This document shows positions 5,280 through 26,296 of a stretch of 27,863 nucleotides of DNA, piece after piece. The notes beneath the pieces are model-generated. The model searched no databases and was not told the DNA's origin. It saw only the letters and a program-made list of their open reading frames with translations. Made by a program: the position numbers and the translations under genes. Source of the DNA: a virus. Each line of letters begins with the position of its first letter. Position 1 is the stretch's first letter. Location of the stretch: the IMG/VR virus record IMGVR_UViG_3300048791_000073, positions 1 to 27,863 of that record. One strand, 5' to 3'.

Positions 5280-5292
5280 TGAAGCAAACCGG

Positions 5293-5324
5293 TGCTCCAG
5301 CGGTATATCTGGAGCAATAATTTT
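5293..5324 (+). terminator. Hairpin between SSB-like gene and ParB-methyltransferase
   Basis: TGCTCCAG (5293-5300), an 8-nt loop, CTGGAGCA (5309-5316): a perfect 8-bp stem followed by ATAATTTT. It resembles a weak intrinsic terminator. Because the next start codon is at 5328 it could equally control translation. It sits in the largest + strand gap between two main genes, so attenuation between the recombination and replication genes is plausible. Confidence 0.5.
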
Positions 5325-5327
5325 AAC

Positions 5328-6650
5328 ATGAAGATAGTAATAAACGACATCAAAATCGGCCCTCGTCAACGTCTTGACCTCGGTAATATAACGGAACTAG
5401 CTGACTCGTTAAAACGCCTTGGTCAAATTCATAACATTGGCGTCAACGAAAACAACCTTCTTATATGGGGACGCCGCCGTCTTGAAGCTGCACGTCTTCT
5501 TGGTTGGCAGGAGATTGAAGCTACGGTAAGAGCCGATCTTACCGACATTGACGAGCAAGAAATCGAACTTGAAGAAGATATTAAACGAAAGAACCGCACT
5601 TGGCAGGAAGAAACAATTGCTATGGCGAAACTCTACGCATTAAAGTCTCGTCAAGCACGGGTGAAGAATGAATCCTTTGGAGTTAGAGAAATGTCTGACT
5701 ACATCGGCGTGTCAACTGCTATTGTAAGTCAATACGTCTTTAATGTTGCTGTGCCTTTGCTTAATGAACCAAAAGATAAAGAACTGTGGGAAGCAAAGAA
5801 CTTTACTGCTGCTCTTGAAGTCCTGCGTGCACGACAAGAAAAAGAAACTGCAAAAGAAATGGAAAAACGTCATGCTGCTGCTAAAGACGCTATTGCGAAA
5901 ATGGTTGTTGTAACAACAAGTAATCCTTCCTCTCCAAGTTCTGTTAAGATTCTAAACGAAACTCTCATGCCGAAAAAGGTTGGAATGACGTTAAGTCTCC
6001 GCGACCGCGCTATGGCGTATAATCAAGCTTTTTCCCACCTCGGTCCACCGAACACTGACCTTTTTTACAGCAATAAAAACGACCGCGAGTTCATCACCGG
6101 CTTCTGGTTCGTTGGCGGTGCAAACATATCAGAACTCTATGGCAGTTATCAAATTGAATACCTTAAACGCATTGAATCACTTTTTCCTGACGCAATTAAA
6201 GTTATACATCTTTTTGTTGGCAGTCTTCCTCCATCAGAAAAGTATCTACGTGTAGGCTTACCTCAAGGAGAAACAAAACCCGATATTGAATGTGACGCTC
6301 ATTATTTGTCGAGTAAATTGCCTTTTAAGTGTGATTTGGTGTATGCCGACCCACCATATTCAGTGGAAGACTCCGAACATTATCAAAATTCAATGGTTAA
6401 TAGAGAACGGATTCTTGAAGAATGTGCATTAGTTCTTAATGATAATGGTTATGTTGTTTGGATTGACCAAGCACTTCCTATATTCAAAAATGAACTCCTA
6501 TCCTTCGTCGGCGCAATCGGATACATTCGTTCAACAGCAAACCGTTTTCGCATAGTATCAATCTTTCGTAAAGCAAAAATATGTCCAACTATCAAATCAT
6601 CACTCCCAAGCGAAAGCACACCCTTACCGAAGACGGCGGACTTTGTATAA
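5328..6650 (+). CDS. ParB-N domain fused to DNA methyltransferase
   Basis: 440 aa from ATG 5328. A GTG 12 codons upstream (5292) is open but would translate through the hairpin, so I reject it. Residues 1-~115 are a ParB/Srx-like domain: INDIKIGPRQR, then W47-GRRRLEAARLLG. Residues ~125-150 look like a helix-turn-helix (VREMSDYIGVSTAIVSQYV). From ~214 a class I SAM methyltransferase follows: motif I-like HLFVGS (His294) and motif IV D341-P-P-Y, typical of N6-adenine/N4-cytosine DNA methyltransferases. It likely recognises and methylates phage DNA, protecting it from host restriction. The repeated 22-nt element lies at the domain junction (5942-5963), just before in-frame Met214. The C-terminal ~24 residues are overlapped by the next gene. 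Confidence 0.82.
   Translation: MKIVINDIKIGPRQRLDLGNITELADSLKRLGQIHNIGVNENNLLIWGRRRLEAARLLGWQEIEATVRADLTDIDEQEIELEEDIKRKNRTWQEETIAMAKLYALKSRQARVKNESFGVREMSDYIGVSTAIVSQYVFNVAVPLLNEPKDKELWEAKNFTAALEVLRARQEKETAKEMEKRHAAAKDAIAKMVVVTTSNPSSPSSVKILNETLMPKKVGMTLSLRDRAMAYNQAFSHLGPPNTDLFYSNKNDREFITGFWFVGGANISELYGSYQIEYLKRIESLFPDAIKVIHLFVGSLPPSEKYLRVGLPQGETKPDIECDAHYLSSKLPFKCDLVYADPPYSVEDSEHYQNSMVNRERILEECALVLNDNGYVVWIDQALPIFKNELLSFVGAIGYIRSTANRFRIVSIFRKAKICPTIKSSLPSESTPLPKTADFV
5942..5963 (+). promoter_or_regulatory. Repeated dyad element, copy 1 (inside ParB-methyltransferase gene)
   Basis: TGTTAAGATTCTAAAC followed by GAAACT: 20 of 22 bases match the copy before the helicase gene. It is followed three bases later by ATG (5967), in frame with the gene (Met214, at the start of the methyltransferase domain). 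It may serve as an internal promoter or start signal for a separate methyltransferase product and the polymerase genes beyond. Confidence 0.6.
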
Positions 6651-10849: not shown

Positions 10850-10857
10850 GTAAATCT

Positions 10858-10879
10858 TGTTAAGAATCTAAACAAAACT
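10858..10879 (+). promoter_or_regulatory. Repeated dyad element, copy 2 (before helicase)
   Basis: TGTTAAGAATCTAAAC followed by AAAACT ends directly at the helicase ATG (10880). It is the reference copy: 21 of 22 bases identical to the copy inside the 2,024-aa gene. The core GTTAAGAATCTAAAC is an imperfect 15-bp dyad centred on the AAT. Confidence 0.7.
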
Positions 10880-12118
10880 ATGAGCTATTTAGCTGATTAT
10901 TTATACTACTTCTCTGGCACAGAAGTTCCTACTGAGTATGCCTACTGGTCTGGCTTATCAATTCTAGGCCACGTTCTAGGTCGCAAGTGCTGGATTAAGC
11001 ATGGTGACTATTTTAAGTTCACCGGCGCAATCTTTGTAACTCTTGTTGGCGAAGCTGGTTCTGGAAAAAATACAGGCTTAAGCGTTAATAAAAGAATAAT
11101 GCTTAAAAGTTTTCCAGAATACTTAATCTCTGCGTCGATACAAAGTCGTGAAGACATTGCGTGGCAAATGGGAGAAGATAATGCAAAATCTCTAAAAACA
11201 TGGAAAGATAAAAAAGGCCTGATACAACAATTTCGTCCTTTCTATATTCTTAATAACGAACTAGCTTCGTTTTTATCAGTTGACAAGGTTCGTATGGTTG
11301 AGTTCCTAACTGAGGTTTTCGATGGTGAAGACTTCAGCACAGGATTCAAAAAGGACCGAAAGGACGACCCAACACGAAAGCAATGGTTTTCTGACCCACA
11401 TGTTTCCCTTCTTGTGGGAGCTGTTCCATCTTTCTTTATGGACTCATTAAGAATGGATTTGTTCTCACGGGGACTTGGTCGTCGAATGATTATTGTAAAT
11501 GCTAGTAGAACAAAGTGTCTACCAAATCCCAAGTTTCCTCCGGGTGCCGAGGACGCTTTAGCGCGTGCCGTTATTCATCTAAAGCACGCAGAGAAGTTTG
11601 TTGGTGAGGTAAAACTAGGTCGCCAAGCAACGGCTTGGTGGGAAACTTGGTATCAAAACCATCGAAACAATCGTCCTCTTGACCCTATTTTAAGTCAGTT
11701 TTGGGTAACTGAACCAATGCAAGTATTAAAACTCGGCTTACTTCTTAACCGATGTGAGTTCCCTTTTAAGCCTGAACTTGAAGACGCACATCTTATCGGC
11801 GCAGCAGACTTGCTTGAAAGACTTAAACCAAATATTGTCCGCTTAACCAGTGGAATAGGTCGTAATGAACTTGCTGGCATTGGAGCGCAGCTACTTGAGT
11901 TTATCGAACGAACTGGCGGGATGCAGACAGAGGTTAACATCTTAAAATACTTTCGACGCTATGCCCGTGACCCAGAGTTTATGGAAATTATTAACTCTTA
12001 TATTAAAACTGGCGAACTTATTATATCCAAAGGAAAGAAACAAGGAGAAACTATTGAGCGGATGTTTTACTTTACACCAGAAGGTTATGAAGCATGGAAG
12101 AAAGGACAGGGAAAGTAA
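10880..12118 (+). CDS. DUF3987-type replicative helicase-like ATPase
   Basis: 412 aa. The P-loop is at residues 57-65 (GEAGSGKNT, Lys63). The residue after Lys is Asn rather than the usual Thr/Ser. A Walker-B-like strand follows at FYILNNELASF, then HVSLLVGAVPSFF and LFSRGLGRRMIIV with candidate arginine fingers. The N-terminus (YAYWSGLSILGHVLGRKCWI) and overall order match the DUF3987 proteins that stand in for replicative helicases in many phages. The C-terminal ~100 residues look like a winged-helix domain (ELIISKGKKQGETIERMFYF). No primase domain is present. Last gene of the + block; a terminator follows. Confidence 0.75.
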   Translation: MSYLADYLYYFSGTEVPTEYAYWSGLSILGHVLGRKCWIKHGDYFKFTGAIFVTLVGEAGSGKNTGLSVNKRIMLKSFPEYLISASIQSREDIAWQMGEDNAKSLKTWKDKKGLIQQFRPFYILNNELASFLSVDKVRMVEFLTEVFDGEDFSTGFKKDRKDDPTRKQWFSDPHVSLLVGAVPSFFMDSLRMDLFSRGLGRRMIIVNASRTKCLPNPKFPPGAEDALARAVIHLKHAEKFVGEVKLGRQATAWWETWYQNHRNNRPLDPILSQFWVTEPMQVLKLGLLLNRCEFPFKPELEDAHLIGAADLLERLKPNIVRLTSGIGRNELAGIGAQLLEFIERTGGMQTEVNILKYFRRYARDPEFMEIINSYIKTGELIISKGKKQGETIERMFYFTPEGYEAWKKGQGK

Positions 12119-12269: not shown

Positions 12270-12449
12270 TTAACCCCTCCCACGCCAATTCAAATGATGC
12301 TGTTGTTTCTTGCTAACAATCCTATTTCTCGGTTGTGTATTAAACATAATGTTACATGCCTTATTATGAAATAATAACCCTTGGATACGTAGGAACTTAT
12401 CTACATCCATGTTGATTAACCTTTTACAACCTGAACATTGAATAGTCAT
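12270..12449 (-). CDS. Small CxxC protein (59 aa), third gene of the PSD operon
   Basis: A 59-aa frame starting on an ATGA overlap with the stop of the decarboxylase gene (12446-12449). It begins MTIQCSGCKRLINMDVDKFL; a third Cys follows at residue 32 (HNKACNIMF) and the C-terminus is basic, rich in Arg, Lys, His and Gln. CxxC followed later by H/C suggests a small zinc-binding fold, but a fourth ligand is not obvious. The coupled start and fit to the gap argue for a real gene. Its position places it with the amidinotransferase and decarboxylase; no function is assignable. Confidence 0.55.
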   Translation of the reverse strand: MTIQCSGCKRLINMDVDKFLRIQGLLFHNKACNIMFNTQPRNRIVSKKQQHHLNWRGRG

Positions 12450-13183
12450 TTTACGTCGTATGCTCCAATATCCTTTACCCTTACTAAAGCATCCACTCCC
12501 GCTACCACATGGTGATTTACTTTTGCAAGGACTTCGTAACGTTCTTCATTTGCTTTCAGTGGAATTACTAAATCAACTTGACTTCCAAATCGCACAATCC
12601 CAAACCGTTCTCCCTGTTGCTGACATTCATAACCCCAATTTGCAATTTCATCAACGTCACGTTCTGCTACTTGAACCATGTAATAACTTGTTTTTATTTT
12701 AGGGGAATACATCCTTGTTATGCAACGCTCATTCGGGAACAAATAACCCATATCGTCAGGATGACTCCCCTTCCCGTGCATCAAGTCATCTTGCTCAAGC
12801 ATCATTGAAAAGTTATGAGTGAATAAATACGGAGTCTTATGAACCTCGGACAGATACCCTGCTGTGGGACAACGATTAACGTGAACGTCATATTCCGTCA
12901 TGTATATTCCAATACACAAAAAGTCACCTGATAAATGCTTATCATCGAGCAAGTCTTTAGGTGTGAATTTACGCCCCTTAACAACAACAATCGCTTCATC
13001 TGCTGCAACCTTTGGGTGAGCATAAATAACAATTCCGTCAGCAGGTGCAAGAAACATTTCGGGACGAAGGAACACCGGACGGAGCGGGTCACGAAAAAAT
13101 TCGACGCCATAGCGGTTACCGAGGTTTTCTTTTTTGATACGGAGAACTTCGGGAGATTTAATCCAAGTTTGTAATGGTTGCAT
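12446..13183 (-). CDS. Phosphatidylserine decarboxylase-like pyruvoyl enzyme
   Basis: 245 aa. Predicted proenzyme of the PSD family, which makes its pyruvoyl group by self-cleavage. The catalytic triad is recognisable: D49 in LAPADGIV, H101 in EYDVHVNRCPTAG, and S201 in VRFGSQVDLVIP, with cleavage expected between G200 and S201. The family N-E-R segment (FPNERCITRM, from ~149) is also present. The short length and FGS (instead of LGST) match the compact PSD type found in archaea and some bacteria. It lacks an N-terminal membrane segment. In cells PSD converts phosphatidylserine to phosphatidylethanolamine; here the substrate could differ. It starts on a TAATG junction with the amidinotransferase gene, so they are probably made together. 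Rare cargo for a phage. Confidence 0.88.
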   Translation of the reverse strand: MQPLQTWIKSPEVLRIKKENLGNRYGVEFFRDPLRPVFLRPEMFLAPADGIVIYAHPKVAADEAIVVVKGRKFTPKDLLDDKHLSGDFLCIGIYMTEYDVHVNRCPTAGYLSEVHKTPYLFTHNFSMMLEQDDLMHGKGSHPDDMGYLFPNERCITRMYSPKIKTSYYMVQVAERDVDEIANWGYECQQQGERFGIVRFGSQVDLVIPLKANEERYEVLAKVNHHVVAGVDALVRVKDIGAYDVK

Positions 13184-14112
13184 TAGAAAATATAGTTAAG
13201 GTGGCTGACAAAACAACTTAATTTAGCACCACTAGCTTCACATTCACTCAAATCAAAGTAAGTAATCTCTTTCCCAAGTTCATGACAAATCAACTCAAGA
13301 CGCTCGTTCTTATTCTTCTGGTCATCGTAGCCCTCTTCGCCACGTCGCAGGTAAGCAAGATTCGAGGAGTTGTAAAGAGCATCCTCAATTACAAGACTAT
13401 TCGCTGCGCCTGTATACGCATCGTTTTTACTGATAGGCCAGACCGTTGCAACTTTCTCAACCGCCCGAATCTGGTCTCTTTCCATTATTTCACAACACAT
13501 CATTACATTATACTCGTTCATCGGAAGAACGCTACAATCAAGATGATAGAGCACTTCATCAGTCTCCTTAATCGGTAGAATCTTACAACCAAACGTATCC
13601 ATTAACCACCTATGAGCACGAATGTCAGTTCGAAAACCATAACCACCAATGTAGATGTTGTCCCGCAAATACTTGAGTTCAGGTTCTCCTTCAAACTTGA
13701 AGGGGCATTTTACTACTTCATATCCCAACTGCGTAAGCAATTTGGCTGCAACCCACTCCTCGCCCTCACGCCCATCGGCAGTGAAGTTAGACAATACTAT
13801 AACGTTACGACCTTTAAGATGCGGAAGGAAAGCGAAGCAGTTTACATAGGTTTGGTCTTGCAACCCCTTTAGTGGTGGAAGAAGGTATGTAAGACTATTA
13901 GCTGCTAACACGTTATAAAGATTATACCACTGAGCTAAAAATTTCGGTCTATTTATCTCTTGCGTAGCTAACTCCTCCATTGTCTTGTTGTTCTTAATCT
14001 TATTATCAACAAAAGCGGGTGGACACATCACCATCACTGAATATGGATATTCACTCGGCGTCTTCGGCATCCACTTGGGGGATGCTTCGTTGTTATTATT
14101 TTCTTTAGGCAT
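13183..14112 (-). CDS. Amidinotransferase/DDAH-family guanidino-modifying enzyme
   Basis: 309 aa. Matches the pentein-fold amidinotransferase/DDAH/arginine deiminase superfamily along its length: LQDQTYVNCFAF (residues 84-95, family PD-x-x-x-x-N), REGEEW, FEGEPEL (140-146, at the usual E-G-G-D site but changed), GGYGFRTD (156-163), the His motif YHLDCSVLP (H190, D192) and a C-terminal SGAKLSCF (catalytic Cys300). These enzymes form a covalent Cys-amidino intermediate and either transfer the amidino group to an amine or hydrolyse it. Transferase versus hydrolase cannot be decided by eye. First gene of the three-gene operon, preceded by the repeated dyad element; its TAA shares a base with the PSD ATG. 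Confidence 0.8.
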   Translation of the reverse strand: MPKENNNNEASPKWMPKTPSEYPYSVMVMCPPAFVDNKIKNNKTMEELATQEINRPKFLAQWYNLYNVLAANSLTYLLPPLKGLQDQTYVNCFAFLPHLKGRNVIVLSNFTADGREGEEWVAAKLLTQLGYEVVKCPFKFEGEPELKYLRDNIYIGGYGFRTDIRAHRWLMDTFGCKILPIKETDEVLYHLDCSVLPMNEYNVMMCCEIMERDQIRAVEKVATVWPISKNDAYTGAANSLVIEDALYNSSNLAYLRRGEEGYDDQKNKNERLELICHELGKEITYFDLSECEASGAKLSCFVSHLNYIF

Positions 14113-14115
14113 AAA

Positions 14116-14137
14116 TGTTTTGTTTAGAATCTAATCA
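14116..14137 (-). promoter_or_regulatory. Repeated dyad element, copy 3 (before amidinotransferase)
   Basis: On the - strand TGATTAGATTCTAAAC followed by AAAACA, three bases before the ATG at 14112. It begins exactly with the TGA stop of the 2,024-aa gene. The core TTAGATTCTAA is a perfect 11-bp palindrome around its central base. Confidence 0.7.
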
Positions 14138-17100
14138 AAACCTTCCTCCAAAATGAGGAGCACGTGGAGCACGAGGTGCTTGCATACCTCTTGGACGATT
14201 ATCAACTGGTGGTTGAATTTCTGTAAAGAACTTTGTTGCAATATCCTGTTGTTGTGCAAGCACCTTATCATAAAGGTCTTTTTGATGTGGAGTTAAAGTT
14301 TTTACAAAAATAGCATCCGTATTTTTATCCATCTGCCCGCGGTTATCTGCATACGTCTTAAAAAACTTCTGCATATCTTCCATCGCACTGTGCTGTGGGT
14401 CGGGGTCGTATTGATGTTCTTTTTCTAATTGTTGAAGACGTTGTTGATAAACGTTCTTTGCAGTAACAATATCTCCCTTCCCCAGTGCATCAATTAAAGG
14501 TTGATTTTGTCCTACTTCAAAATCAGGTTGTTTCGCTCGACCCAACTTGTAGAGAAACTGTCTCCGCAAGTTTCCTACAATCGTCCTTGGACTTGACGCA
14601 GGTTCCGCTTTAATCCCCGCAGAAGCCATTAACTGACGTTCTGTTTGTCCGGGGTAACCACCCTTAACAACTGGTTGCAAAGGAAGTGGAAGGGGAATTA
14701 AGCCTTCGACTGCACTCTTTACTGTCTCTCCTGTTGACAAAGGTCTTCCTAGGTAATCCCTCTGTTCCTTAACTGTTTCTGCTGCTCTAAACAACGGACT
14801 CTCTTTATTCGAGAAAATCTGTGACGCGGTTTGTAACGCCGAGTCCCCTTTCGCGAAGTAGCGGACAATGTCATGGGTAATTTCCATCGGCAAACTCAAC
14901 GGACTAACCCAAAACCCATTAGCCCCACCGGGAACCCAAGCATCAAGTTTATGATCTTCTTCGTTGTCCCAAGTGGGATGACCAGTCGTCGCAAGATTAG
15001 CAACCTGCGTTCCAACAAAAGTCCAGAAGATTAAATTACTCGTTCCACGAAGTAACGTCCCCGCGACAGGTTTCTTCCCCTGTGCAAGTTGCCTGACATA
15101 CCCTACTGCTTGTCCTGCACTTTTCGCCTCGGTCTTGAGCATTGATTCTACCCATTGTGGTGCAAGGAAAATTAACTTTGAAAGGTCTTGGGAAGTCTTA
15201 CCCCTCCAGATACCTTGACGACCGAGGTTACCAAAATTGGTGTTGATTTCTTTCACCACTTTAGTAGTTGCCTCCGCATCAGTTAAATCTTCTTTCCGCA
15301 ACCGTGTATACTCCTTCACCGCAGCATCCATCATAATCCCACGAGTGAGCTTTTCAAAAATCCACCGATTTGCGGTGGCTGGAATCCCCGCAACCTTTTC
15401 ACCAATTTCTCCTCCAAGGTATTTTCCAATCGCCGGCATCAGATGAGTCACCACTTCCGAATCCAACCCCTCTTGAATCCTGCCAACATTCAATCCACCT
15501 TTAATCAACCTCTGCGCGACGTCACGATTATCCTTTGCATAATCATACGCCTGTTTAGTAATATCCCCATTACTCAACGCGGCATCAAGGTCTTTATCTT
15601 GATACTCAAGCAAGGACAACCCCTTTCCATACCCTCTTACTCCAAGCGATAATCCCTTCACAAACATCCGCATCGCATGGTAACTATCAAACACCAACAT
15701 TGAATGTTTCAAGCCGCCAACCCCTTGCAACAACCCTTTCCCAACCGGCATCCCCTTAAACTCAAACTGCCGAATCCTACTCAACGAAGTAATCGAATCA
15801 AAGATATTCCGATACCCGCGATGAATTGCAAAGCCACGACCGGCAACTCCCCAAGTTTCATATCCTCTTGGCGGAACCATGTCAACCTTTCCTGTCTCTG
15901 TATTCTTCCGAGCAATCAAATTCTCAACGATTGGTTTCTTTGTCGTCGGGTCTTTAATCTCCTTCATCCCTTCTAACCACTTCACGTCATTCACCATCTG
16001 CTGACCGGAAGCAAGACGATTCTCGACAAGGTTTGCGGCGTTCCATGACTTAATTGCTTTTCCGTATCCTTGGTCGATAGCGTCATAAAGGGTAGAAAAA
16101 ACCCTCTGCTTCAAAAAACCTTTATCCCCGCTTCCACCACCCGCACCGAAGAAAGTATCCGCAAGGGTGTCTGGAATCTTGGAAACATCGTAAGCGTGTT
16201 TAATGTATCCCTCACGCTCTGACACATCCAACCCCGCAGACCTTTCCTCGTCAAGTTCCTTTGCATGGTAATCATTAACCTCTTTCACCAAAGGTTGCAA
16301 CTTGTCCCAATTCGCTTTTGCAAACGTTGCGGCAGCTAGACCTTGAGAGTCGCCTTTAGCTTTCGCGGAAGCGATAAACTTATCTAGTTCCTTCTGATTC
16401 CCGTTTGCTTCGATTGCAGCAGTGGTTGCATTAAGGGCTTGTTCGCTTTGTGCACCGAAATCTTTCTTCGCCATTGCAACTAATCCATTCTTCACCTGAT
16501 TCGCGTAAATCTTCGCTTGGTTATCTGCCGCGTCCTTTGCACGAATGATTGCATCTTTTGGTGCGGAGGTTTTGATTGACGTAACAAACTTATCCCTCAA
16601 TGTTTCAAGAGGAGTTTTTTGCTGTGCAAGTTGACTTAACGTCTTCCCTACAAACCCCCCCGGACGCTGTGGACGCTGTGGAAAAATCGCACCACTCTTC
16701 CCGTAAAGTGAAAACTCTTTAGGAAGTGGTTTCGCGGTGGATTTGATGGGGAAGAGACGGCCACTTACCGAAGTCTTAGGAGTGCCGTCGGGGTTGCGGA
16801 AGATGAGGTCTTTACGTATATCGCCTTCAATTTCTAGTTCTTCGGGTGTTTTAATTACAGATACATCCACCGCGCCACGCTCCTTCACCTCTTGTGCATA
16901 GGAATCTGCTTCGGCTCTTGTATCAAATAACTGAGTCTCACTATCATACTCGACCATCCAAGGGCGGTTAGGTAACGAGATCCCCGGGTCTCTTACAAAC
17001 GCATTCTTGTGCTCCCCAAGACTCACCTTCTCACCCTTACTCCCCGTCAACTCCTCAAGAATCTTTGGGAGAGTGCGGTCGTAGTGGAGACGCATACCGG

Positions 17101-20100
17101 GGGCTTGGGTTATATCCTTTTCACTAGGAGTTCTTTGTCCCATTGGTCTATCACTATATCTTACTTCATGTAGTGCAGCTACATCATGCCCCTCCGTCAT
17201 CATCGCTGTCTCTGCATCACTAATCGCTATCGCATCAGCACCTTCAGAACGAGCGTGGTCGACAGCGGCTTTCAGGGCGAGACGTTCGTAGTGAGAGAGG
17301 AGGGGGTCTTGCGACACATTATCTCGACCACCACCCCGTATATCTCCAGATTTTATCATCTGCTGTTCTTCTCTCGCACGCTGCGCCCAATCACTCTGCA
17401 CTTCAATCACATGAAACACCTTCTTAGGCAAAAATTCACTAGGCTTACCCTCAGTATAGTAAGCACGCCCTAAAGATTCGTTGTCATCCTTTATCCGGTC
17501 TTTGGGTATGTTTAACTCAACAATTTCAGGTTGCTTATGCCCGTTACGCTTCAGCATTTCTTTGTAAAACTCAGCATCCTCTATATTATCAAAGACGTGT
17601 AATCCTTTACGTCCAAATGACGATGTTGCTTTGACGTCTGTTCTCCCTTCTTTCAGTGCTTTTGCATCGGTTGTAACATGATAGTATTTATCTCCAGCTT
17701 TCGGCAAGGTTTCCATATACCCACGCACGAAGCCTAGGGTGTTTGGTGGGAAGTTGTGGGAGGAGGGGGACTTGTCTGGACTAGCTTTCCACCTAGCAGC
17801 ATCTTCTGGTGACAAATCTTTACCTGACCAGTCAGCACCATACTTCTTATTGAACTCATTCTGTAAATCTTTCTGTCCCGGCTTCACCACCGCAATCTCC
17901 ACATACCCTGGCATCTCACGCTCGGACTTGGGAGCAATACCTTCCCAGGAAGAACGTTTTTCACGATTGAAACCCTGACGTTCTATCGTTATTTCATGCT
18001 CGAAATCCACATAATTTTTCTTTGCCTCAAGGAAGTTTTTGGCAAGTTCATTTTGTTCTTTAGTAAGTTTACCTTCTAAAGACATTTGGCCTAAATCTTG
18101 TTCATCCGTAGGTAATCTTTGTGTTTCGAGTTGGTGTTGAAGTTGTGTATATTTTTCAATGTGAGGATTTTTTGGCTCATTGAATTGTGGAGTATTCCCA
18201 AACTTCCTAACCTCCACCTTCGGTGCGTTGCTCTCCGCCCAGTCCTGTGTCTCCTGCACACTCCTTGGCTGATTCAAAAAGTTCATCAAACCAGCAGACT
18301 GCAATGCTTGAAACGTAGCACTCGCTTCTCCTAACTTATTCCTTAACCGATTCCACATCTGTCCGGGGTCTATTTTTACTGTCTTATTACTACCAAATAA
18401 AGAATCCCACATCTCCCTCGGCGCGATAACAAAGCCACCTTCTTCTCCAGTCTTGTTTAGATTCTTAACAGAACCTTTAACAACCATTCCCTGACTTGTT
18501 GGAGCCGATAGTATTCTTTTTACCAACCTTCCCTCAAGTTCGTTCTTCGCAGCGATAAGATTTACAAACTTATCATGCGCTGCTTTCTGACTTAATGAGT
18601 CCTGCGACACCCTATCTGGGTGCATCTGACTTAAAAGGTTCTTAAAAACCATCTGTAAGACACGGCGTTTCTCTAACAACTGTCCCTGTGTCAGCTTTGC
18701 AAATGGCACACTTCCAACCTTGGGATTGATACCAAGTTGTTGAAACAACGCTTCCGTCTTGACCTTTTTAATACTTAGACCATAAGAGCCGATTTTGTTA
18801 ACACCCTTAACTTCGGTCGACGGAGACAACGGATTTTGTTCTTTAGTAGGAAAAATAGAACCTGCTTCCTTAAAACGACTAATAAGCTGATTATTTTTAT
18901 CTACTTCTCTCCCTAACGCATCAACCTTCTTTCCTCCTACAAGAGAAATAGGATACTTTACTCCCCCATTGACTTCGCCATTGCTTCCGCTTCCTGGTCG
19001 GACTGGCTTTCCGGCTGTTCCGGGTATGTTTTCTTGAGGTGCTTTTTGTATTTGTCCTTGAGGGAGACTTTGCCCTTTCCCTTCTTGAATGGGGATTTTT
19101 TGCCCTTGGCTTTGTTCGACTGCATTTGCTGTTGTTCCTGCTGTTGCATTTTGTTCTCCTTGTTTTTGTTGAATTTGTTGAATTTGTTTATCCGCATCGT
19201 AGATAACATTTCCTTGTTTATCGTAAACCTTTTGAACATCACTTAAATTTAACGGACCTTGTCTACGTTTGTCACCCGGGTCATCAGTAAGTTTAGATAC
19301 CTTTTGGTGAGCAGAATCTTTATACTGAATGATAACCCCATCATCTCCAGTGGCGTAAGAATTATAGTGAGATTCTATAATAGGTTCTGGTTGATTCGGC
19401 ATCAACTTCCCCTTATCAAACGGAGAAGTAGAAGCCGTAGTAGGTTCTTTTGAAGCGGCGGCATCAACCTTTATGTTTGGCGCAACAGTCGCTGCGTCTT
19501 TGGTAGGACTACTACGGCTTAAAGAATTAAAGTATGCGGCATATTCGGGCGAACCGGGAGATGGGCGGACGAAGGGTTTGGGTTCGGGTTTAGGAAGTCC
19601 AGCGAGGATGTGTGGTGCGATTGCACCAAAAGCCATTAGTCCACCCTGCCCAGCTTCACCATAATTCATCGTCCTTTGCGCTCCCGTTTCATTAGGAGTT
19701 GGTGTTGGGATTATACCTGCACGAGGTTTTCCCGCAAACTCTTTTCCAAGTCCTCGTCCAATAGCTTGTCCCGCTGCTGGTATAAAAGCAAGACCAAGTA
19801 ACTTTGCCGCCGCTAATCTTACCCCCGGATTCAAATCCTCTGTTGTCGGTCCACCAGCAAGCAAAGCCAAACCTCCAGGAGTTGCAATAGCGTTAACAAA
19901 TTGTTCGCCTAACGAACCGATAGCTTGAGGCACAGTTGTCGGGTTCGGATTAGGATTGAATACAGGTTTCTTCGACCCAAATAAAGCTGCTGGTGCTTGT
20001 TGTAAGGATTGTCCTATATTATAACCAACAATTCCCTGTGGTCTTGTAGACAAAGAAGATTCAAGCCTTTGAAGAAAACCTGGATGCGCTTCATTTAACT

Positions 20101-20209
20101 GCGGAATATCAGAACGATTTGAATTAAGGGTAGCAAACCGCCCCTGCGGTATTAAATCCGCAAAGGCATTACTCGACGAAGAAGGAATCAAGTCGTCAAA
20201 CGCGCCCAT
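14135..20209 (-). CDS. Giant ejection/polyvalent virion protein with J-domain
   Basis: 2,024 aa, in the place of T7 gp16. The N-terminus carries two copies of the phage F-x-D-L-I-P motif (FDDLIP, FADLIP). Residues ~325-420 are a Gln-rich linker. Residues ~485-560 look like a DnaJ domain: LFQQLGI, then FKNLLSQMHPDR with H530-P531-D532, then HDKFVNLIAAKNEL. Residues ~840-1010 match an enzyme-like domain of large polyvalent phage proteins: KYYHVT, VFHVIEVQSDWAQ (near 935) and LALKAAVDHARSEGADAIA. Residues ~1190-1850 are helical with hydrophobic stretches (FLAPQWVESML, NLIFWTFVGTQVANL), as in LPD38-type ejection proteins that line a trans-envelope channel. It is likely packaged and injected with DNA. 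Start follows a Q-rich gene by one base. A repeated dyad element lies inside at residues ~580-588. Confidence 0.8.
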   Translation of the reverse strand: MGAFDDLIPSSSSNAFADLIPQGRFATLNSNRSDIPQLNEAHPGFLQRLESSLSTRPQGIVGYNIGQSLQQAPAALFGSKKPVFNPNPNPTTVPQAIGSLGEQFVNAIATPGGLALLAGGPTTEDLNPGVRLAAAKLLGLAFIPAAGQAIGRGLGKEFAGKPRAGIIPTPTPNETGAQRTMNYGEAGQGGLMAFGAIAPHILAGLPKPEPKPFVRPSPGSPEYAAYFNSLSRSSPTKDAATVAPNIKVDAAASKEPTTASTSPFDKGKLMPNQPEPIIESHYNSYATGDDGVIIQYKDSAHQKVSKLTDDPGDKRRQGPLNLSDVQKVYDKQGNVIYDADKQIQQIQQKQGEQNATAGTTANAVEQSQGQKIPIQEGKGQSLPQGQIQKAPQENIPGTAGKPVRPGSGSNGEVNGGVKYPISLVGGKKVDALGREVDKNNQLISRFKEAGSIFPTKEQNPLSPSTEVKGVNKIGSYGLSIKKVKTEALFQQLGINPKVGSVPFAKLTQGQLLEKRRVLQMVFKNLLSQMHPDRVSQDSLSQKAAHDKFVNLIAAKNELEGRLVKRILSAPTSQGMVVKGSVKNLNKTGEEGGFVIAPREMWDSLFGSNKTVKIDPGQMWNRLRNKLGEASATFQALQSAGLMNFLNQPRSVQETQDWAESNAPKVEVRKFGNTPQFNEPKNPHIEKYTQLQHQLETQRLPTDEQDLGQMSLEGKLTKEQNELAKNFLEAKKNYVDFEHEITIERQGFNREKRSSWEGIAPKSEREMPGYVEIAVVKPGQKDLQNEFNKKYGADWSGKDLSPEDAARWKASPDKSPSSHNFPPNTLGFVRGYMETLPKAGDKYYHVTTDAKALKEGRTDVKATSSFGRKGLHVFDNIEDAEFYKEMLKRNGHKQPEIVELNIPKDRIKDDNESLGRAYYTEGKPSEFLPKKVFHVIEVQSDWAQRAREEQQMIKSGDIRGGGRDNVSQDPLLSHYERLALKAAVDHARSEGADAIAISDAETAMMTEGHDVAALHEVRYSDRPMGQRTPSEKDITQAPGMRLHYDRTLPKILEELTGSKGEKVSLGEHKNAFVRDPGISLPNRPWMVEYDSETQLFDTRAEADSYAQEVKERGAVDVSVIKTPEELEIEGDIRKDLIFRNPDGTPKTSVSGRLFPIKSTAKPLPKEFSLYGKSGAIFPQRPQRPGGFVGKTLSQLAQQKTPLETLRDKFVTSIKTSAPKDAIIRAKDAADNQAKIYANQVKNGLVAMAKKDFGAQSEQALNATTAAIEANGNQKELDKFIASAKAKGDSQGLAAATFAKANWDKLQPLVKEVNDYHAKELDEERSAGLDVSEREGYIKHAYDVSKIPDTLADTFFGAGGGSGDKGFLKQRVFSTLYDAIDQGYGKAIKSWNAANLVENRLASGQQMVNDVKWLEGMKEIKDPTTKKPIVENLIARKNTETGKVDMVPPRGYETWGVAGRGFAIHRGYRNIFDSITSLSRIRQFEFKGMPVGKGLLQGVGGLKHSMLVFDSYHAMRMFVKGLSLGVRGYGKGLSLLEYQDKDLDAALSNGDITKQAYDYAKDNRDVAQRLIKGGLNVGRIQEGLDSEVVTHLMPAIGKYLGGEIGEKVAGIPATANRWIFEKLTRGIMMDAAVKEYTRLRKEDLTDAEATTKVVKEINTNFGNLGRQGIWRGKTSQDLSKLIFLAPQWVESMLKTEAKSAGQAVGYVRQLAQGKKPVAGTLLRGTSNLIFWTFVGTQVANLATTGHPTWDNEEDHKLDAWVPGGANGFWVSPLSLPMEITHDIVRYFAKGDSALQTASQIFSNKESPLFRAAETVKEQRDYLGRPLSTGETVKSAVEGLIPLPLPLQPVVKGGYPGQTERQLMASAGIKAEPASSPRTIVGNLRRQFLYKLGRAKQPDFEVGQNQPLIDALGKGDIVTAKNVYQQRLQQLEKEHQYDPDPQHSAMEDMQKFFKTYADNRGQMDKNTDAIFVKTLTPHQKDLYDKVLAQQQDIATKFFTEIQPPVDNRPRGMQAPRAPRAPHFGGRF
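18449..18470 (-). promoter_or_regulatory. Repeated dyad element, copy 4 (inside the giant gene)
   Basis: On the - strand TGTTAAGAATCTAAAC followed by AAGACT: 21 of 22 bases match the copy before the helicase. It encodes VKNLNKT in the giant protein, just after the J-domain. The next in-frame ATG is Met600 at 18412, 37 bases downstream, so an internally started shorter product is conceivable. Confidence 0.6.
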
Positions 20210-24002: not shown

Positions 24003-25862
24003 CTAATAGTTAGTTATTGTAATAGTTGGAGACGTTACTACCAGTTTTGGTGATGAACTATCAGTAACCGTGCAAGCAATTACAATAGTTTCATTTGCAG
24101 TTACACCAAAAAGTCCACTAGTTGGAGCTATACCATTAACTGTAACACTTGCTGCAGTTGTGCTTGAAAGACTTGCTACACCAGAACCACCATACTTTAT
24201 CACATCCGATTGAATAAACCAGTAATATGTATAAGGAGCTGTTCCACCCGATATATTCAAAGACTCAACTTGAGATGAGTGAACAACACCATCTTCAGTT
24301 TGTTGTGTTGAAGGAACATTTAACAGCACAATTAACGACGTTACTACATTAAGAACAAGAGCAAGACTTCCATCAGTTGGTGTGCCAGAAGTTGTTGTAA
24401 CGGTGTAAGTGTTTGGTAACGTATCAGAACTTAATCTTGTCAATTTACTAATCATTACTAACGCACTCAAACCTGTTGCATAGGCAACGTATCCTCCGTT
24501 ACTACCACTATATGCAGTTATATTTGCGGCAATAGCTACATACCAAGCATTGTAGTTTGTTCCAGATGCAGTGACTGTCCCGCTTAAAAGATTGGTTGAA
24601 CCATTGATGATAACGCTACTACAGGCAACACCACTTGATGGTGCGGTAACAGTAAAAGCTACATTATCAATAATAACATTTCCAGTTACCACAGTCTTCA
24701 CCACATAACCATTTAGTGTTATTCCAGTATTAACAGCAGTGATGATAACCTGACTTGGTGGTGTGCTATTTGTATTTGCTGTTGCGGTATATTGTAAAGG
24801 TGATGCAATATAAGCACTTATTTGTGCAGCAACTGCTGTAGCAAGCTGTGCTGCTGTTGTTATTGTTCCACTAAAATTAACTGCGCCACCAAGAATATCA
24901 ACTCCGTTCACATAAACATGTGCTACACCACCCGTCGAGCCCTCAAGGATGAAAAAGCTACCAATAGCAGAAACTCCCGACTGTGGAGGAATAGGATTAA
25001 AAAGTTGATTGATACTTAATGTGCCAGCCCCAGATGTTATAGCCTGAGTCGCGCCATTAACTGTCGAAGCTCCAGTTGGGTCAGTAATAACAGGAGAATA
25101 GGTTAAACCAACACTAGACCAAAAAGTGAAAGTGCCTCCACTTGGTGTGGAAACAAACCAGTTAGGAGTAACAAGGGTATTAAGTGTTGATAGGATTGTA
25201 TTTGATAGCGTTACTGCAAGATTTTGATTTGACGTCCAACCGCTCAACACCGTCCCATTAACCCAAGCATCAATAGGAACAGCGTTTTGATAAACAAAAG
25301 TTAAACCATCAGAAAACGTTGCTACAACCCAAGCAAAACCACCATAAGATGTTGAGCAAGGAACAGAAACTAAAAGGTGTTTTGTAATATCATACCTCGC
25401 ACCTTGCAAGACACCAGGATGTTGTAACCGTTGATATGAAACATTATTATACCATCCACCAGGGTCTGTTCCACTTCCAAAAACTAATAAACCATTGGCT
25501 GAGGTTTCTAAACCATAAGTATTCTTACTTACAAAAATTGAAGTATAAGTCCATATGGTTGGTGTTGTTCCCGTTGCAACAAAAATTACTCCATTTGCAT
25601 TAGATGCTGCTCCAACATTTGTAAAATCATCTCCTACAATATAGCCAGAGATGATATAAGTTGCGCCTATTATCAACGTTCCCGATGTTAAAACTGTATC
25701 TCCCGCATACGATGCGTTAATAAACGCCTTTCGTATTTCAATCTCCGCGCCTTCATTAACGTGACAATCCTGTAACGTTTGTAGCGTCCCAGCTTGAGAC
25801 GTTAAAGCAGAACGACGGGTATCTAGGCCGCCCTTAAAGTTAGAGAATGAAACAAAAGGCAT
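24003..25862 (-). CDS. Tail nozzle-like protein, N-terminal part, with Ig-like C-terminus
   Basis: 619 aa. The N-terminus (FSNFKGGLDTRRSAL, then LQDCHVNEGAEIEIRKAF) matches the start of nozzle/stabilisation proteins, where a G-G-L segment is followed by N-x-x-x-x-x-x-G-x-x-x-x-R. Residues ~58-110 hold an inserted module of the tail-fibre type (GATYIISGYIVGDDFTNVGA, then NGVIFVATGTTP). The middle is Thr/Val/Ser-rich beta sequence. The end (~530-619) is an Ig/PKD- or SprB-like domain: SGGTAPYTYYWF and ACTVTDSSSP. Such domains often bind host surfaces. Preceded by a copy of the repeated dyad element. Confidence 0.65.
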   Translation of the reverse strand: MPFVSFSNFKGGLDTRRSALTSQAGTLQTLQDCHVNEGAEIEIRKAFINASYAGDTVLTSGTLIIGATYIISGYIVGDDFTNVGAASNANGVIFVATGTTPTIWTYTSIFVSKNTYGLETSANGLLVFGSGTDPGGWYNNVSYQRLQHPGVLQGARYDITKHLLVSVPCSTSYGGFAWVVATFSDGLTFVYQNAVPIDAWVNGTVLSGWTSNQNLAVTLSNTILSTLNTLVTPNWFVSTPSGGTFTFWSSVGLTYSPVITDPTGASTVNGATQAITSGAGTLSINQLFNPIPPQSGVSAIGSFFILEGSTGGVAHVYVNGVDILGGAVNFSGTITTAAQLATAVAAQISAYIASPLQYTATANTNSTPPSQVIITAVNTGITLNGYVVKTVVTGNVIIDNVAFTVTAPSSGVACSSVIINGSTNLLSGTVTASGTNYNAWYVAIAANITAYSGSNGGYVAYATGLSALVMISKLTRLSSDTLPNTYTVTTTSGTPTDGSLALVLNVVTSLIVLLNVPSTQQTEDGVVHSSQVESLNISGGTAPYTYYWFIQSDVIKYGGSGVASLSSTTAASVTVNGIAPTSGLFGVTANETIVIACTVTDSSSPKLVVTSPTITITNY

Positions 25863-25863
25863 A

Positions 25864-25885
25864 GGTTTTGTTTAGATTCTAATCA
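25864..25885 (-). promoter_or_regulatory. Repeated dyad element, copy 5 (before nozzle gene)
   Basis: On the - strand TGATTAGAATCTAAAC followed by AAAACC, ending one base before the ATG at 25862. Like copy 3 it begins exactly with the TGA stop of the upstream gene, and TTAGAATCTAA is a perfect palindrome around its central base. It opens the long tail and ejection gene run. Confidence 0.7.
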
Positions 25886-26296
25886 AGACTTGATTCCACG
25901 GTCACTATCAAATGATGATTGGCCGAATTCGTTCACAGCGATGTAAATTAGTTTTGCTTCATCTTCTGGAACAAAGTTATCTTGACAAAGTTCAAGTAAT
26001 CCACTATCACATTCTTGTTTACTTAAAGTAACATGAACCCACACTTCATTGATAAATTCTTCAAGTGTATCACGATATCCACAATCATGCCAGACTGCCG
26101 GCAAGAATGAGTTAGTAGATTGAATGTTTAACTTGACAAATTTCGGAGCACTTAACCCGTCTGTAGTTGAACTATCAGCCCCACGAAAAAGTCTACCTGA
26201 ACGAAGTCTAGTTTCTAATTGTGCCCCAATAAACGTCATGTTTGTGCCGTCGAGACACAATACATTGAGAGGTTTGTTGGGGTAGACGAATGGCAT
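25883..26296 (-). CDS. DUF1353-family protein
   Basis: 137 aa from the ATG at 26296, placed one base after the stop of the upstream gene (TAATATG). An open extension to 26347 would overlap that gene and looks random. The family pattern is clear: STTDGLSAPKFV (D-G-x-S-x-P), then FLPAVWHDCGYRD (H-D-x-x-Y) and SKQECDSGLLELC. DUF1353 proteins are phage proteins of unknown biochemistry found near lysis or tail genes; the conserved D, H and D suggest metal binding or hydrolysis, which is inference. The next gene start is preceded by the dyad element that begins with this gene's stop codon. Confidence 0.72.
   Translation of the reverse strand: MPFVYPNKPLNVLCLDGTNMTFIGAQLETRLRSGRLFRGADSSTTDGLSAPKFVKLNIQSTNSFLPAVWHDCGYRDTLEEFINEVWVHVTLSKQECDSGLLELCQDNFVPEDEAKLIYIAVNEFGQSSFDSDRGIKS

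Follow-up and report, generated by a model that had tools for sequence, protein, structure and literature searches.

Organization of the locus

The stretch of DNA analyzed here (the window), 27,863 bp in length, was an entire IMG/VR virus record, which may itself represent a genome fragment. Three coupled genes had been described in it, with no strand given, in the first-pass annotation, and these were recovered as minus-strand ORFs of 309, 245, and 59 aa. The features of the locus were as follows.

10856-10876, no strand assigned: dyad copy, 3 nt ahead of the ATG of a 412-aa ORF (10880-12118, plus strand)
12270-12449, minus strand: 59-aa ORF, CxxC...HxxxC mini-protein (phrog_2569, E = 0.0012)
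12446-13183, minus strand: 245-aa ORF, decarboxylase of the phosphatidylserine decarboxylase (PSD) fold, pyruvoyl dependent, without a membrane segment (Pfam PF02666, AF2/Foldseek, hydropathy)
13183-14112, minus strand: 309-aa ORF, predicted arginine dihydrolase-type (ArgZ/AgrE-like) guanidine-modifying enzyme (GME) (NCBIfam, PDB, AF2/Foldseek, residue mapping, conservation)
14119-14139, no strand assigned: dyad copy with 0 mismatches, 6 nt ahead of the operon ATG
14135-20209, minus strand: 2024-aa giant ORF directly upstream of the pair, putative internal virion protein
25867-25887, no strand assigned: dyad copy, 4 nt ahead of the ATG of a 619-aa ORF (24003-25862, minus strand)

As read from the sequence, the 309-aa and 245-aa ORFs overlap by 1 nt in a TAATG junction, and the 245-aa and 59-aa ORFs overlap by 4 nt in an ATGA junction. 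The catalytic residues named earlier for the two enzymes (H190 and C300 in the 309-aa protein; D49, H101, and G200-S201 in the 245-aa protein) were all present, and those five positions were invariant or almost so across 32 lineages of related loci. These lineages were obtained by collapsing a cassette set of 170 locus entries at 80% GME identity, and 30 of the 32 had the gene order GME-PSD.

Membership of the CxxC mini-protein in the operon stood only in part. Its ATGA coupling to the decarboxylase gene is real, but the phrog_2569 match is weak, and no relative of the ORF was found in the more than 200 loci fetched, so that it may lie outside the enzyme module. The placement of the operon at the end of the structural block, after virion genes, was borne out. 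Pfam yielded no match for the searched part of the 2024-aa ORF, which is therefore called a probable internal virion protein from its size and position. Elsewhere in the window, at 5292-6650 on the plus strand, a ParB-domain protein is fused to a DNA-methyltransferase-like C terminus (phrog_3816 and ParB phrogs).

The dyad element claimed upstream of the operon also proved to be real, with a perfect copy at that position. The element, TTTGWTTAGAWTCTAAWCAAA, is palindromic, and five copies with ≤3 mismatches were found in the window, starting at 5940, 10856, 14119, 18452, and 25867, against 0.01 expected. Three of them (14119, 10856, and 25867) stand 3 to 6 nt ahead of start codons, and in all three CTAAACAAAAC comes next, toward the gene. 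Judged by this arrangement, the dyad probably serves this phage as an operator or a leaderless-type promoter, and the copy at 25867 suggests that the enzyme operon is tied to the late block.

The first enzyme resembles arginine dihydrolases

The 309-aa protein had been labeled an amidinotransferase, a name that is also an old GenBank annotation in Campylobacter phages. This label pointed to the wrong subfamily, as sequence, profile, and fold comparisons all placed the arginine dihydrolase ArgZ/AgrE first. The protein had no Pfam match at an E value of ≤1, and thus none to the amidinotransferase families, and no amidinotransferase family was among its NCBIfam matches, which included Arg_dihydro (1.8e-20), bifunctional ArgZ (7e-20), and dimethylargininase (7e-18). 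Since its score of 73.3 bits is far under the NCBIfam equivalog cut-off of 450, the protein was regarded as a superfamily relative rather than an ortholog. Sequence matches in the PDB were to ArgZ/AgrE only, with E values of 5e-15 from the single sequence and 4e-32 from a profile. For the AF2 model (pLDDT 90.5), the 13 best Foldseek matches were all ArgZ/AgrE; the match to 6jv0 (2.8e-20, TM 0.78-0.88) identified the pentein fold. DDAH followed at 3.7e-14, while the amidinotransferases SxtG, AGAT, and HsvA appeared at ∼1e-9, ranked 35th and lower and about 10 orders of magnitude below ArgZ/AgrE.

Residue mapping placed the active site at N42, D86, N91, R115, E141, R161, H190, D192, and C300, with C300, H190, and E141 forming the Cys-His-acid catalytic set. 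The equivalents of AgrE N22, D65, N71, R90, E93, E118, R139, H168, D170, and C264 were kept in at least 31 of the 32 lineages. N91 aligned with AgrE N71 in the profile alignment, the residue changed to Ser (N71S) in PDB entry 6juz, and R115 and R161 correspond to R90 and R139. The latter two arginines presumably grip the substrate carboxylate, as in DDAH and ArgZ. With these carboxylate-holding arginines kept, the substrate is therefore likely to be a free amino acid.

The cyanobacterial ArgZ/AgrE enzymes (6jv0, 6lrg, and 6lrh) thus have their fold and complete active site in common with the 309-aa protein, but the latter corresponds to the N-terminal domain alone, without the ornithine cyclodeaminase domain, at ∼20 to 24% identity. 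On the evidence of sequence and model, the best reading of the 309-aa protein is a predicted arginine dihydrolase-type enzyme.

The second enzyme has the PSD fold and no membrane segment

The 245-aa protein matched Pfam PF02666 with an E value of 1.9e-25 (90.2 bits versus a gathering cut-off of 22). By sequence it was closest to bacterial phosphatidylserine decarboxylases, and it scored under every NCBIfam PSD cut-off. D49, H101, G200, and S201 were found in 32/32 lineages and are the counterparts of E. coli PSD D90, H144, G253, and S254; the second Asp is D99 (E. coli set D90/D142-H144-S254). The roles of D90, H144, and S254 have been described for the E. coli enzyme (PMC7952604). Compared with E. 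coli Psd and the short PRK05305 type, the phage enzyme has the same fold, Asp/His/Ser set, and internal G-S self-cleavage site, but it lacks the membrane anchor, carries GSQ (or GSM or GSA) in place of LGST, and at 245 aa is longer than the short-type PSD models (about 200 to 230 aa).

E. coli PSD is membrane bound via three N-terminal amphipathic helices (PMC7952604). In the phage family, 27 to 88 residues precede the PADG motif, and no segment with a mean hydropathy of >1.6 was found in the decarboxylases of the 32 lineages, a measure by which peripheral binding is still possible. The equivalent of Ser166, which binds phosphate in E. coli PSD (PMC7952604), was Ser or Thr in 28/32 lineages.

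In Foldseek, the AF2 model (pLDDT 86) matched E. coli PSD (3e-7), then the tryptophan decarboxylase PsiD (2.6e-4), and then the arginine decarboxylase of A. oryzae (0.03). This last match was weak and structural only (probability 0.99, TM by query length 0.41-0.46), and no sequence-level match was found between the phage decarboxylase family and the fungal PSD-fold amino-acid decarboxylases. Like the predicted phage enzyme, PsiD and the A. oryzae enzyme are PSD-fold pyruvoyl enzymes acting on free amino acids, but they are fungal, larger (340 to 380 residues), and only 11 to 13% identical to it. The A. oryzae enzyme is cited as pyruvoyl dependent and is counted among three pyruvoyl arginine decarboxylases that arose convergently (PMC12283126). 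The PSD fold is therefore able to decarboxylate arginine, which does not imply that activity for the phage enzyme. The substrate of the 245-aa decarboxylase is predicted to be a basic amino acid, either ornithine or arginine, and this is the weakest step of the interpretation.

The two genes are paired and inherited together

Co-occurrence of the two families had been proposed as a check, and the pair did not prove accidental, as the genes were direct neighbors in nearly all viral contigs long enough to hold the two. Wider scans returned 166 GME-family loci with a PSD-family gene directly downstream, and the reverse test returned 178 PSD loci with a same-strand GME no more than 1.6 kb away; both figures are locus entries, with some contigs counted from both sides. 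Eight PSD loci were listed without a partner, seven from Campylobacter and one (L144) with the GME cut at the contig start. The main exception was the Campylobacter Fletchervirus group, in which both genes occur in one genome but are unlinked. Among GenBank phages, the pair was adjacent and in the same order in Bacteroides phages SJC03 and DAC16-23. In the first IMG/VR scans, it was adjacent in every non-Campylobacter contig with room, except L020/L062, where both genes were on the same contig in a different orientation. Pairwise identities of GME and PSD across the 32 lineages were correlated (r = 0.92), and median Ka/Ks values of 0.12 (GME) and 0.11 (PSD) indicated purifying selection on both genes.

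Scans of viral contigs with single sequences returned no homologues, and alignment-based searches were required. Many IMG/VR records are fragments, and gene absences in them are therefore soft. In the two Campylobacter phages PV052264 and PP921807 (H126 and H127), divergent or truncated GME relatives were seen, with matches split over several hypothetical proteins. A GroES-like co-chaperonin gene lies directly upstream of the Fletchervirus PSD gene in Campylobacter phage CP39 (L004, 8619-8915). In L054, a 176-aa ORF at 10880-11410 separates the pair genes and has a weak, subthreshold GIY-YIG match (E = 0.025).

The pair had been taken to belong to no standard phage pathway, which held: the pairing of an arginine enzyme with a PSD-fold enzyme in phages appears to be undescribed so far. 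The one marine AMG paper containing both gene names has them in its reference list only and does not describe the pair.

Gene neighborhoods in phages

In T4-like phages the pair was located directly after the major head protein gene, between it and PhoH, and it followed a giant ORF (1459-2548 aa) in the window and in L083, L060, L061, and L057. These sites, after the major capsid gene or giant ORFs, are late, virion-block positions.

A third gene, of the agmatine-deiminase family (PF04371), was found beside or between the pair in 9/32 lineages and in 7/14 whole pair-bearing records. It was present in the nearest relatives of the window (L083, L084, and L024) and absent from the window itself. 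The phage protein keeps the GHxD and Cys motifs of agmatine deiminase/PAD_porph PF04371, but it is shorter than bacterial AguA and falls under the equivalog cut-off. When two PF04371 proteins were searched with tblastn against 50,697 GenBank phages, matches were confined to the pair-bearing Bacteroides phages, one fecal record, and weak unannotated records. The fecal record, MT836602 (marked UNVERIFIED), carries the PF04371 gene and neither pair gene. The matches in Listeria and Enterococcus "phage" records that lack annotation were weak (21 to 23% identity) and were excluded from the phage genes.

No base-modification partner was kept beside the pair. Spermidine synthase (PF01564), AdoMet decarboxylase (PF02675), and N-carbamoylputrescine amidohydrolase (PF00795) were absent from 15 to 16 pair-bearing records, and a PS synthase of the CDP-alcohol phosphatidyltransferase type (PF01066) was absent from 16, with controls working in both cases. 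Genes resembling dCTP deaminase and GMP reductase lie directly downstream of the pair in Bacteroides phage SJC03 (L002, 12838-14320), and likewise in the Bacteroides-type loci L020, L021, and L022/L054.

Copies in bacterial genomes

A scan of 84,980 species yielded eight loci, of which six had both genes, on contigs that were chromosome-like or from MAGs; of the remainder, L075 was on a phage-like MAG contig and L077 was cut at the contig end. In the four Xenorhabdus loci (L078-L081), PSD-GME was followed by an ABC exporter in those that were read, and in L078 genes for aminobutyraldehyde dehydrogenase and GABA transaminase lay on the other side of the pair. In Saprospiraceae (L082), GME-PSD was followed by a MatE transporter, and in Acidobacteria (L076), a MATE exporter was found ∼1.4 kb beyond PSD-GME. 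Searches of related groups (149, 395, and 396 genomes) found the pair in one or two genomes each, limited to Xenorhabdus and the starting genomes, and a common bacterial operon was thereby ruled out. An exporter would suit a diffusible small product rather than a lipid or DNA modification. The chromosomal copies are possibly a captured viral pathway for an exported amine.

A proposed route from arginine to an amine

The reading that we consider probable is that the pair forms a two-enzyme viral cassette by which arginine of the host is turned into a small cationic amine. The families and active sites, the coupling and co-inheritance of the two genes, the purifying selection on them, and the gene context of the cassette were computed; from these we infer the substrate of its second step, its product, its timing, and its purpose. 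In the first step, the 309-aa protein would bind free L-arginine and strip its guanidine by Cys/His chemistry, yielding L-ornithine, ammonia, and CO2. The 245-aa protein would generate its pyruvoyl group by self-cleavage at G200/S201 and, acting in solution rather than at the membrane, would decarboxylate a basic amino acid, yielding either putrescine from ornithine or agmatine from arginine. In those related phages that have the third gene, agmatine might then be handled by the agmatine-deiminase-family protein. The operon would be expressed with the late genes through the common dyad element, so that the amine would build up during DNA packaging and virion assembly. It could serve as a DNA counter-ion in packaging, support late translation, or feed host spermidine synthesis. 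As no downstream polyamine genes were found, the viral route would end at putrescine or agmatine, and the host would complete the pathway.

Of the three suggestions made in the first-pass annotation, its polyamine-like route came closest, but with removal of the guanidine in place of amidino transfer. Two observations sit poorly with the cassette reading: a route through a dihydrolase and ornithine decarboxylase has no need of the agmatine-deiminase-family gene, and exporters next to the bacterial copies could equally signal another secondary metabolite. No assayed activity for any member of either family was found in the open-licence literature.

As a precedent, phage-encoded pyruvoyl enzymes with another fold have been proven biochemically to decarboxylate ornithine and arginine (Li et al. 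2023, PMC9992855). The same survey reported no phage arginase and found agmatine deiminase in chloroviruses only, and its text mentions neither dihydrolase nor phosphatidylserine. Those SpeD-derived enzymes are phage encoded, pyruvoyl dependent, and proposed to raise polyamines (PMC9992855), as predicted for the cassette, but their fold, that of AdoMet decarboxylase, is unrelated to that of the window enzyme. Read as an amine pathway, the cassette would bring a new enzyme route to phage polyamine metabolism, a theme already known.

Alternative interpretations

The alternative that survives best, although we regard it as unlikely, is that the cassette makes another arginine-derived metabolite. 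For instance, an amidino group might be moved to an acceptor amine and the product decarboxylated, to give a guanidino-amine that is inhibitory to competitors or host functions and is exported by the capturing bacteria. It would accommodate the ABC or MATE exporters adjoining the bacterial copies, the additional PF04371 enzyme in 9/32 lineages, and the lack of detected downstream polyamine genes, and guanidine-modifying enzymes do change from hydrolases to transferases, or the reverse, without a change of fold. The comparisons of the first enzyme speak against it, with SxtG, AGAT, and HsvA at 1e-9 versus ArgZ/AgrE at 1e-20, no amidinotransferase among the Pfam or NCBIfam matches, and a complete dihydrolase active site.

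The DNA-base and lipid head-group readings, both raised earlier for this locus, are disfavored. Phage hypermodification pathways use amino-acid adducts and decarboxylation. Here, the PSD-fold enzyme might decarboxylate an amino-acid adduct carried by a base of the phage DNA, with the guanidine of the adduct edited by the GME. Fletcherviruses, which have altered DNA, carry both genes, and GMP reductase-like and dCTP deaminase-like genes occur near the pair in Bacteroides-type loci. This reading is nevertheless improbable: no base-modification partner is conserved by the pair, bacterial chromosomes also carry the pair, beside exporters of small molecules, and the conserved R115 and R161 indicate a free amino acid. 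Moreover, the alteration of Fletchervirus DNA is reported in PMC8713573 (citing Crippen 2019) as replacement of guanosine by deoxyinosine, with no guanidino base mentioned there.

Conversion of phosphatidylserine to phosphatidylethanolamine, altering envelope charge, would agree with PSD being the closest sequence family and with the Ser/Thr kept at the Ser166 position in 28/32 lineages. We give this reading very little probability, since no membrane helix or hydrophobic segment was found in the 32 lineages, unlike the membrane-bound E. coli PSD (PMC7952604), the PS synthase of the CDP-alcohol phosphatidyltransferase type was absent from the 16 records, and the universal partner of the decarboxylase is an arginine enzyme and not a lipid enzyme.

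Each arginine split by arginine dihydrolase yields two ammonia, and decarboxylation uses up a proton, so that arginine depletion or ammonia release could act in counter-defense or in controlling pH; the decarboxylase would then draw the reaction forward or consume protons. The pair lies among late virion genes, not with early or defense genes, and this is the least probable reading of all.

Implications

Through this interpretation, two families entered in phage databases as of unknown function, or annotated as a lipid enzyme and an amidinotransferase, turn into a single pathway of two steps that can be tested. In marine T4-like phages, gut Bacteroides phages, and others, pairing of the two genes is near-obligatory. 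The cassette is also present in cultured phages, namely the DAC16/SJC03 group of Bacteroides thetaiotaomicron and the NCTC12673 group of C. jejuni. More broadly, and with some doubt, we put forward a mobile, hitherto unrecognized amine pathway that combines an arginine dihydrolase-like enzyme with a PSD-fold decarboxylase, which would be the first in prokaryotes or viruses to use a free basic amino acid; the pathway may have been assembled mainly in viruses, spread over distant tailed phages, and sometimes been picked up by bacteria, where it is coupled to an exporter. If the two-step pathway is confirmed, a non-homologous viral route to amines would be added, the reach of PSD-fold enzymes to basic amino acids would extend beyond fungi, and arginine consumption would be tied to late virion assembly.
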